Of a stretch of 43,105 nucleotides of DNA, positions 2,147 to 33,243 are shown one piece after another. The translations under genes and the position numbers were made by a program. Source of the stretch: Spirochaetota bacterium. Lineage in GTDB: Bacteria > Spirochaetota > Brachyspiria > Brachyspirales > JACRPF01. The stretch's first letter is position 1; every line of letters begins with the position of its first letter. Location: assembly GCA_038043445.1 (NCBI GenBank), contig JBBTBY010000065.1:1-43105 (forward strand), written 5' to 3'. Under the pieces are notes generated by a model that was not told where the DNA came from, made no database searches, and saw only the letters and a list, made by a program, of their open reading frames with translations.

Positions 2147-2309
2147 CAGTGTGTGCCTTTCCATTGTGGTAACGCAGCGAAATAATTGCATGAGGCCGGG
2201 ATCAGCAGCCAGACACGAATTACACTAATTTCCACGAATTATTCGTGGTTATTCGTGCAATTCGTGTCTATCCCTCTTGATTTGGCGTCAATCGATCGGA
2301 GCATTTCAC
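2147..2309. repeat. Dispersed intergenic repeat R1, copy A (163 nt)
   Basis: This segment is repeated in the same orientation at 33025-33187. The copies have identical length, 8 mismatches by eye (about 95 percent identity) and no gaps. The core, 2211-2238 with 2242-2269, is an imperfect palindrome that folds into a 28-nt-arm hairpin (24 pairs) with a 3-nt loop, built of reiterated ACACGAATT-like words. It fills most of the 323-nt gap between coaX and the gene at 2410, and the rest of the gap holds only the 2346-2373 promoter. No transposase or clear target-site duplication is seen. Confidence 0.85.
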
Positions 2310-2345
2310 ATACAAATAAAATTCACTCACCAGACGCGCGAGCCC

Positions 2346-9691: not shown

Positions 9692-9719
9692 ATCGAGCCC
9701 GTGCAGGAAACTGGAGCCC

Positions 9720-9908
9720 CGATTCATCACGTAAGAAAATAAAACCACGGAGGGCACAGAGAATATAAGTGAATGCAATGAAGAGCATGGAGGATAATGC
9801 GCAGCATGTATCATCTTTCGGGTGAAAACGCTTAATTTTCCATCTGCTCTTTTTCGGCCTTTTCTCCGTGATCTCCGTGGTTTCTCTTTATCCTTATGCG
9901 AGGATTTG
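9720..9908. repeat. Dispersed intergenic repeat R2, copy A (189 nt)
   Basis: This segment recurs in the same orientation and at identical length at 12550-12738, with 20 mismatches by eye (about 89 percent identity). Both ends are nearly identical and most differences fall in the middle. AAACCACGGAG at 9742-9752 is perfectly inverted at 9873-9883, with further CACnGAGA arms inside, so it can fold into a long stem with a loop of about 100 nt. It fills most of the 349-nt gap between the divergent lipoprotein and hisE genes. No coding capacity is credible. Confidence 0.85.
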
Positions 9909-9923
9909 TGTCATCGAGCACAT

Positions 9924-9952
9924 TTGCGGACACAGCCTCGACATGATATAAT
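9924..9952 (+). promoter_or_regulatory. Sigma-70 promoter for hisE-hisG
   Basis: TTGCGG (9924-9929), a 17-nt spacer and a perfect TATAAT (9947-9952) preceded by TGA, an extended -10. Transcription would begin near 9960, about 20 nt before the hisE ATG. Confidence 0.55.
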
Positions 9953-9981: not shown

Positions 9982-10299
9982 ATGAACGCATTCGAACGAT
10001 TAGCATCGGTGATAGCGGAGCGAAAGACCGCCGATCCGTCGACATCCTATACGGCAAAGCTCATGCATACGGGTGTCGACAAGATGAACAAGAAAATAAT
10101 CGAAGAGGCGTATGAAACATGCATGGCGGCGAAGGAGAACGACAAGGCGCATCTCACCGCCGAGATATGCGATCTATTTTATCACACGCTTGTCCTCGCC
10201 GGTTACAAGGATATCACCATTGCCGATATAGCGTCGGAGCTTGAGCGGCGCGCCGGGACGAGCGGGCTTCTTGAAAAAGCATCGCGGGGAGAACAATGA
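9982..10299 (+). CDS. hisE: Phosphoribosyl-ATP pyrophosphatase
   Basis: This enzyme hydrolyses phosphoribosyl-ATP to phosphoribosyl-AMP, the second step of histidine synthesis. The 105-residue product matches the MazG-like HisE fold: SYTAKLMHTGVDKMNKKIIEEAYE near residues 22-45, then the metal-binding helix AEICDLFYHTLVLAGY. It is a stand-alone HisE rather than a HisI-HisE fusion. The stop overlaps the hisG start (ATGA), so translation of the two is coupled. The ribosome site is weak (a CAGG run). Confidence 0.93.
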   Translation: MNAFERLASVIAERKTADPSTSYTAKLMHTGVDKMNKKIIEEAYETCMAAKENDKAHLTAEICDLFYHTLVLAGYKDITIADIASELERRAGTSGLLEKASRGEQ

Positions 10300-11171
10300 C
10301 ACTGGGATCGAACGATACGATAAAATTCGCCATACCGAACAAGGGGCGGCTCTCCGAACCGACGATGGCGCTCATCAAGCGCGCGGGGTTCTCATTCCGC
10401 CAGAAGGAGCGCATGCTCTATGCGACCTCTGCATCGGCGGACATCACCTTCGTATTTCTACGCGCCGAGGACATACCGCTCCTCGTAGCGAACGGCGCCA
10501 TCGATGCGGGCATTACCGGCCAGGACCTCGTCATCGAGAAAGAGGCGGATGTCGCCGAGCTTCTGCCGCTCGATTACGGTAAATGCCGCCTGTGCGTCGC
10601 CGTCAGCCAGAATTTCCCGGGAGAGGAGGCATCGCTCCTTCGCGGGAAGACCATTACGACATCGTTCCCGGTCATAACGAAAAACTTCTTCGCCCGCGAG
10701 AAGGTGGATGTCAACTGCATCGAGATGAGCGGAGCGATAGAGATAACCATAGCGCTTAAGATCGCCGACGCCATTGTCGATATCGTGGAAACAGGAGACA
10801 GCCTCAAAGAAAACAATCTGAGGATATTCCGGGAGATCGGAAAATATCAAACGGTGCTCATCGCCAATAAAAAGATCGCAGCGGATGAACGCATCGCGCG
10901 TATCAAGCGGCGCATCGAAGGCATACTCATCGCCGACACGTACAGCATGCTCGAATACAATATCCGGGCTGAGAAGCTCAGGGATGCGGAAGCCATAACA
11001 CCGGGATACGAATCGCCCACGATATCCGAGCTTGACGAGAAGGGCTGGCTTGCGGTGAAGGTGATGGTACAGAAAAGCAAACTCGCCGAATCGATGGACA
11101 GACTGGAAGCGATAGGGGCGCTCGCGCTCATTGAGACCGAGATAAAGAACTGCCGCCTGGGCAAGAAGTAG
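10296..11171 (+). CDS. hisG: ATP phosphoribosyltransferase, long form
   Basis: HisG condenses ATP and PRPP in the first committed step of histidine synthesis. The 291-residue product is the long, single-subunit form. The catalytic domain has the IPNKGRLSE N-terminus, AGITGQDLV and the phosphate-binding DAIVDIVETGDSLKENNL region. The C-terminal ~75 residues (PTISELDEKGWLAVKVMVQ onward) form the ACT-like regulatory domain that mediates feedback inhibition by histidine. No HisZ partner is therefore expected. It overlaps hisE by 4 nt and is followed after 15 nt by the DUF4870-like gene. Confidence 0.95.
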   Translation: MTLGSNDTIKFAIPNKGRLSEPTMALIKRAGFSFRQKERMLYATSASADITFVFLRAEDIPLLVANGAIDAGITGQDLVIEKEADVAELLPLDYGKCRLCVAVSQNFPGEEASLLRGKTITTSFPVITKNFFAREKVDVNCIEMSGAIEITIALKIADAIVDIVETGDSLKENNLRIFREIGKYQTVLIANKKIAADERIARIKRRIEGILIADTYSMLEYNIRAEKLRDAEAITPGYESPTISELDEKGWLAVKVMVQKSKLAESMDRLEAIGALALIETEIKNCRLGKK

Positions 11172-12536: not shown

Positions 12537-12549
12537 GTTGCCAGCCGCC

Positions 12550-12738
12550 CGAATCATCACGTAAGAAAATAAAACCACGGAGGGCACAGAGAATGTATGA
12601 GAATGCAATGAAGCGTATGGAGGACAATGCGCAGCAGGTATCATCTTTCGGGTGAAAATGTTCAGCTGCCCTTCCGTTCTTTCTCGGCCTTTTCTCCGTG
12701 ATCTCCGTGGTTTCTCTTTATCCTTATGTGAGGATTTG
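12550..12738. repeat. Dispersed intergenic repeat R2, copy B (189 nt)
   Basis: Second copy of the segment at 9720-9908, same orientation and same length. It keeps the AAACCACGGAG terminal inverted pair and the central ATCATCTTTCGGGTGAAAA block. The copies flank the hisEG-DUF4870-M48 group, so this four-gene block sits between two direct repeats. The remaining part of the 283-nt gap holds only the promoter at 12754-12782. Confidence 0.85.
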
Positions 12739-12753
12739 GGAGCCGTTCTGATA

Positions 12754-12782
12754 TTGATATAAGCCGCAAGGCATGGTACAAT
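12754..12782 (+). promoter_or_regulatory. Sigma-70 promoter for the 509-residue protein
   Basis: TTGATA (12754-12759), a 17-nt spacer and TACAAT (12777-12782), giving a leader of about 30 nt. Confidence 0.55.
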
Positions 12783-32982: not shown

Positions 32983-33010
32983 ATTATATTCGATGGGCCT
33001 GTTTTGTCAA
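32983..33010 (-). promoter_or_regulatory. Perfect-consensus sigma-70 promoter for nuoDEF
   Basis: On the minus strand TTGACA (33010-33005), a 16-nt spacer and TATAAT (32988-32983). The start point would be near 32976, only about 5-6 nt before the nuoD ATG. Confidence 0.75.
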
Positions 33011-33024
33011 CGACATGGGGAAAA

Positions 33025-33187
33025 CAGTGTGTGACTTTCCATTGTAGTAACGCAGCGAAATAATTGCATGAGGCTGGAATCAGCAGCCAGACACGAATTA
33101 CACTAATTTCCACGAATTATTCGTGGGTATCCGTGCAATTCGTGTCTATCCCTCTTAATTTGGCGTCAATCGATCAGAGCATTTCAC
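33025..33187. repeat. Dispersed intergenic repeat R1, copy B (163 nt)
   Basis: Second copy of the repeat at 2147-2309, same orientation and length, 8 mismatches. The hairpin arms keep 23 of 28 pairs. It lies in the 273-nt gap between znuA and nuoD, immediately upstream of the nuoD promoter. About 55 nt between the repeat and the znuA stop hold nothing I recognise. A reading frame starting MHEAGISSQTRI inside the repeat occurs at both copies and is not a gene. Confidence 0.85.
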
Positions 33188-33243
33188 CATCAAAAAAAAC
33201 ACTCGCGGGAAAACGAATATATTCCGGCGTCTTTGCGGTCGTA

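Follow-up and report, generated by a model that had tools for sequence, protein, structure and literature searches.

Transposon Tn7 inserts at a fixed distance from a recognised landmark, in one orientation and with a 5-bp target duplication, and its ends are TGT...ACA. The yeast elements Ty1 and Ty3 integrate upstream of RNA polymerase III genes by way of the transcription machinery, and REP/BIME sequences are short palindromic intergenic repeats with RAYT transposases. IS5 reportedly activates E. coli fucAO by insertion upstream of the promoter region. The element described here, R2, was found in a window of 43,105 nucleotides (the whole stretch of DNA analysed, from a Spirochaetota bacterium) and was followed through its own genome, a fragmented assembly of 5.13 Mb in 178 contigs. 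R2 is like Tn7 in its fixed distance from a landmark, its single orientation and its 5-bp duplication, and by analogy it would work like a targeted transposon; it differs in using many promoters instead of one site and in its CCC...GGG ends, by which a Tn7-like assignment was excluded, the Tn7 ends being taken as above. A fixed place upstream of transcription starts is shared with Ty1 and Ty3, although these are eukaryotic retroelements and R2 is a short bacterial DNA element. R2 departs from REP/BIME in its target duplications, in inverted repeats that are long and asymmetric, and in the lack of a Y1_Tnp protein in its genome; IS5 at fucAO is one insertion at one operon, whereas the spacing of R2 is fixed genome-wide.

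The passages of PMC10969869 that deal with bacterial MITEs describe a preference for intergenic DNA and promoters carried within some elements; where insertion preference is treated, a constant distance from a host promoter is not mentioned, and Tn7 targeting of attTn7 is touched on. Correia, RUP, ERIC, BrickBuilt and MITEAba12 are like R2 in being short, non-coding, intergenic and multi-copy with terminal inverted repeats and target duplications; R2 is unlike the MITEs of the passages in PMC10969869 in that it keeps a constant position with respect to promoters of the target itself. No fixed MITE-to-promoter distance was found in the literature searched, in which subscription journals were thinly covered and from which absence is unproven.

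Extent, ends and interior of R2

A repeat search of the window placed the R2 pair at 9718-9908 and 12548-12738 with 90% identity; with the terminal GGG or GTG counted, the units occupy 9718-9910 and 12548-12740 and are 193 bp each, which confirms the earlier note's description of a pair of equal length and about 89% identity. The features of this part of the window are as follows.

9718..9910, plus strand: R2 MITE copy 1, 193 bp, CCC...GTG, right end towards the promoter
9924..9929, plus strand: -35 box TTGCGG, 13 bp past the right end of R2 copy 1
9947..9952, plus strand: -10 box TATAAT, spacer 17, predicted hisE promoter
9982..10299, plus strand: hisE, ATG at 9982, PF01503, first gene of the hisE-hisG-DUF4870-M48 block
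10296..11171, plus strand: hisG, PF01634 and PF08029
11187..11693, plus strand: DUF4870 protein, PF09685
11697..12536, plus strand: M48 peptidase, PF01435
12543..12547, plus strand: AGCCG target duplication, left, of R2 copy 2
12548..12740, plus strand: R2 MITE copy 2, 193 bp, CCC...GGG
12741..12745, plus strand: AGCCG target duplication, right, of R2 copy 2
12754..12759, plus strand: -35 box TTGATA, 13 bp past the right end of R2 copy 2
12777..12782, plus strand: -10 box TACAAT, spacer 17, predicted promoter of the DUF5312 gene (ATG 12820)

The true ends are marked by an outer inverted repeat (CCCGAATYATCACGTAAGAAAA / CCCAAATCCTCACATAAGGATA; left end CCCGAATYATCACGTAAGAAAA, right end as reverse complement CCCAAATCCTCACATAAGGATAAAGAGAAA) together with the target duplications; both of these, and the fixed promoter spacing described below, had escaped the earlier note. 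Inward of the outer ends lie CCACGGAGGGCACAGAGA...TTTTCTCCGTGATCTCCGTGG, and the inverted arms around a loop that had been proposed are present as CCACGGAG...CTCCGTGG, as is the conserved central block, a small inverted repeat (TCAYCTTTCGGGTGAAAA) of pattern TCAYC-TTTC-GGGTGA. The interior takes several forms across the genome, namely R2 proper, units whose arms are GCAACCACAGAG and whose centre is CACCCAACRGGTGATT, units that contain CACGAAA words, and units of 64 and 80 bp with next to no interior.

The arms had also suggested a structured RNA or RNA regulator, and the predicted hairpin is strong, 150-nt stretches that hold both arms folding at z = -3.3 to -5.5 relative to shuffles. However, the covariation of the stem by which the earlier note proposed to judge this was not borne out: a compensatory change was seen in 1 of 18 predicted pairs in an alignment of 14 copies, the covariation term was unfavourable (+0.75) and the window gave 0 Rfam matches, and thus an RNA function lacks support. 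Inverted repeats yield such a hairpin as a by-product, and the copies lie upstream of promoters, outside their transcripts. An RNA role for R2 is accordingly very improbable, and of the alternatives "MITE-like or structured RNA" it is the former that stood, on the terminal inverted repeats, 5-bp duplications and many dispersed copies.

Copy number, target duplications and the search for a partner

Chance as the source of the repeat was ruled out by a genome-wide copy count of the kind the earlier note had proposed, which gave 46 blastn matches at E<=0.01 in the genome of origin. A 20-base pattern of the R2 end, with <=3 mismatches allowed, matched 69 sites in the same genome against 2 for the reversed control. 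Inverted ends were paired mechanically in the fetched loci with terminal repeats as the sole criterion, yielding 33 distinct elements (35 prior to removal of duplicates), mostly 160-197 bp long with paired units spanning 64-245 bp and a variable interior. An exact 5-bp target duplication flanks 10 of the 33 and a 6-bp duplication one (L026); exact duplications of 7 to 11 bp were found in 0 of 33 at each length. R2 thus shows terminal inverted repeats, short target duplications and short, dispersed, multi-copy units that carry no coding gene of their own, and it is a MITE, a non-autonomous DNA element.

No autonomous partner with R2 ends was recognised among the inspected end sites of the 178-contig assembly. 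Contigs break in or at R2 copies (L006, L015, L016, L018, L024 and L025), so further copies and any autonomous partner may be absent from the assembly. Profiles of the IS1380-type (PF13701) and Y1 (PF01797) transposases gave 0 matches each in the genome of origin, PF01797 being present in 5 of 14 control genomes; the former result speaks against derivation from IS1380, and the lack of a Y1 (TnpA-REP) transposase in this genome against a REP/RAYT assignment. The same genome has 6 matches to PF13366 (GxxExxY). At L031:1501-1845 (contig C35) a PDDEXK_3/GxxExxY gene lies between CCACCGAGGACACAGAGG and CCTCTGTGCTCTCCGTGG, words as in the inner arms of R2. This bracket reads CCACCGAGG...CTCCGTGG and is without the outer R2 ends, leaving a derivation of R2 from a GxxExxY cargo unit unsupported.

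Two further repeat types were observed. Near position 12614 of contig C66 lies a palindrome of about 42 bp (CCCAAATCCTCACAGAATGGATCACGTACGTGAGGTTTTGGG, L183) with a promoter-like TTGCAA 13 bp past one end, which is perhaps the smallest R2 member. Other dispersed word-like repeats of the genome (L189-L195 and L061; CTCCGTGAGCTCCGTGGACTCCGTGA, TTCGCGTCTTCGCG and similar) are without R2 ends.

Spacing between R2 and promoters

In 22 of the 33 elements a TTG lies exactly 13 bp outward of the right end, while every other right-end offset from 0 to 59 has a TTG in 0-2 elements; given a background of 0.0133 TTG per position, the binomial P is 9e-34. At the left end, offset 13 carries a TTG in 2 of 33, both of the CACGAAA type (L071, L093). 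A TAnnnT follows 16-18 bp after the -35 hexamer in 22/22 of these cases, compared with 7/128 for background TTGs of the distant flank. The hexamers include TTGACA, TTGACC, TTGATA, TTGCGG and TTGCAT, with TATAAT, TATACT or TACAAT as the -10 box; the promoters are sequence predictions for which the joint -35/-10 statistics are strong.

The rule extends to 9 of the 10 elements with an exact 5-bp duplication, and the sole copy with a 6-bp duplication (L026) has a spacing of 14. Beyond the 33, R2 ends at L006, L018, L024, L047 and L113 are also at 13 bp, and so are L183 and L087 when read in the opposite of their listed orientations; those at L102 and L109 are not. The 64-bp copy L103 has almost no interior and keeps the 13-bp spacing, which indicates that the R2 ends suffice. 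The 11 of 33 copies without a right-end TTG at 13 comprise L009 and L013 (spacing 11), L026 (spacing 14), L071 and L093 (TTG at 13 on the other end), L012 (TTG at 12, or at 13 with the end read one base earlier), and L021, L027, L100, L182 and L185, which have no TTG near the expected right-end place. L021 (contig C134) has a clean 5-bp duplication, and a TTGACA is seen at 35 bp, 22 bp or about two helical turns past the usual place.

Both copies in the window follow the 13-bp rule, copy 1 before the hisE promoter and copy 2 before that of the DUF5312 gene. Two direct repeats of 90% identity flanking the his block could be taken as the frame of a 2.6-kb unit moved by recombination, as the earlier note had suggested, or as a composite transposon. 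However, copy 2 has its own AGCCG duplication on both sides and is for this reason an independent insertion, each copy goes with a promoter of its own, R2 copies genome-wide sit singly at unrelated loci, and no sign of block movement was seen; a mobile his block is hardly credible. The flanks of copy 1 differ (GGAGC and TCATC), and hence no target duplication survives there. The "bracketed block" is two independent insertions ahead of two neighbouring promoters, and hisE-hisG-DUF4870-M48 is an ordinary gene set with one R2 insertion before it and another after; the copies share an orientation because both promoters point the same way.

The second family D2

The other repeat family of the window, D2, was first searched as a control.

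2149..2330, plus strand: D2 copy 1, ends GTGTGTG.../...CACTCAC, left end on the promoter side (minus strand), weak -35
33027..33199, plus strand: D2 copy 2, left end exact, right boundary the blastn limit
33005..33010, minus strand: -35 box TTGACA, 16 bp from the left end of D2 copy 2
32983..32988, minus strand: -10 box TATAAT, for D2 copy 2

The D2 ends (GTGTGTGACTTT / GTGAGTGAATTT) are unrelated to those of R2, and the target duplication is 9 bp; comparison of 14 left/right pairs showed it to be exact in 8. The same geometry is seen: of 23 copies, 16 have a TTG at a distance of 16 bp from their left end (P = 2e-25) and 7 do not, and TAnnnT is present in all 16 of the former. At the right end a TTG at 16 bp occurs in 1 of the 19 rows listed, among which the loci L200, L202 and L216 are double-listed. 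Since R2 and D2 share the rule with different duplications, it need not belong to one transposase.

Relatives in other genomes

A search with R2 DNA in 150 genomes returned the copies of the genome of origin, one 32-nt match to the core and nothing else, and plasmids and phages gave no match. The end pattern with <=2 mismatches was found at 52 sites of the genome of origin and at a background level of 0-2 sites in each of the 391 others among 392 genomes of the phylum. End matches in a viral contig (L196) and in Izimaplasma/Mollicutes, archaeal, Chloroflexi and Hydrogenedentota sequences had no paired element on inspection and were assigned to chance.

Three exact matches to the end pattern were found in one Elusimicrobia assembly. 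The elements there are about 100 bp long, with R2-like ends and a central TCACC...GGTGAAAA; their right end GTTACCTGATCTTTTGGG is near to TTACGTGATCTTTTGGG, in which copy L017 of the genome of origin ends. Their target duplications are 7 bp, exact for AGTTGAC and TCTCATT and matching at 6 of 7 positions in one further case. Among 9 elements in three Elusimicrobia genomes, the TTG lies at 15 in L159-L162, at 14 in L163, L170 and L173, and at neither 14 nor 15 in L164 and L171. A clear -10 box is present in only about 2 of the 7 elements with a TTG at 14-15, which makes the promoter reading weaker there, and some of these copies may face no gene start. The single flank tried for an empty site, that of L170, had no counterpart in the sister genome G392. 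In G392 the L161 element is nested in a second repeat (gctttacaac...ttgtaaagaagcgttagg), and an element-free copy of a similar repeat beside L160 resembles an empty site.

Proposed targeting mechanism

The spacing between element and -35 box is 13 bp for duplications of 5 bp, 14 for 6 bp, 14-15 for 7 bp and 16 for 9 bp, and, measured from the middle of the duplication, the first T of the -35 box is computed to lie 10.5, 11, 11.5 and 11.5 bp away for duplication/spacing pairs of 5/13, 6/14, 7/15 and 9/16. A spacing that rises with the duplication length points to a strike at a constant position with respect to the promoter, not to selection for a fixed final spacing. R2 is therefore likely to have been inserted by docking on sigma-70-type promoters, as a non-autonomous MITE with its transposase acting in trans. 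This transposase would cut and join the CCC...GGG ends, leaving 5-bp target duplications; the transposition complex would dock on the promoter, with RNA polymerase holoenzyme as the most probable contact and the -35/-10 DNA itself as the alternative; and the strike would fall roughly a helical turn upstream of the -35 box, the element turning the same end to the promoter in nearly every case. We infer that the spacing is set at insertion, by the transposase, with RNA polymerase or a sigma-like protein as the landmark, which would be presented by RNA polymerase holoenzyme, by a sigma-like domain of the transposase or by bent DNA.

Insertion could instead be random, with survival only where the element end acts as an upstream regulatory site (an UP element or activator site) in the right helical phase. 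The orientation bias of both R2 and D2 would fit this, and a precise distance from the -35 box is typical of activator sites. However, copies 60-200 bp upstream should do no harm and yet are rare, with the 0-2 elements per TTG offset other than 13 given above; the spacing follows the duplication length, as a fixed strike point predicts; the ends of R2 bear no sequence relation to those of D2; and the near-identical R2 copies L002-L005 already follow the rule. Survival of random insertions is thus a quite improbable account. Somewhat unlikely, too, is direct reading of the -35/-10 DNA by the transposase without RNA polymerase, for instance through a helix-turn-helix like that of sigma region 4. 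Of the whole flank the TTG varies least, and few Elusimicrobia TTG copies have a clear -10 box, as such reading would have it, but in R2 and D2 both boxes occur with a normal spacer of 16-18 bp in 22/22 and 16/16 cases, and a rule held in common by two families with different ends and duplications argues for a common host landmark.

With docking on promoter-bound RNA polymerase as the preferred reading, it may tentatively be proposed, at slightly less than even prospects, that transposition systems unrelated to one another use a common landing pad at promoters, both in this bacterium and in one or more further phyla. RNA polymerase bound to a promoter would present the DNA roughly one turn upstream of the -35 box, this DNA would capture transposition complexes in a fixed orientation, and the MITEs that gather there would mark active sigma-70 promoters to the single base.

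Significance

The spacing of R2 suggests that promoters can be targeted by bacterial mobile DNA to within a single base. The usual description of bacterial MITEs goes no further than an intergenic location; insertion at one exact position relative to the promoter, by one family or perhaps several, would if true be a new mode of target choice and a bacterial counterpart of integration guided by the transcription machinery. It makes the docking of a transposase on RNA polymerase or sigma a testable proposition, and DNA delivery just upstream of promoters is a possible tool. For the organism itself, which belongs to an uncultured lineage, R2 sites would, if this is true, amount to a naturally made map of the promoters at work.
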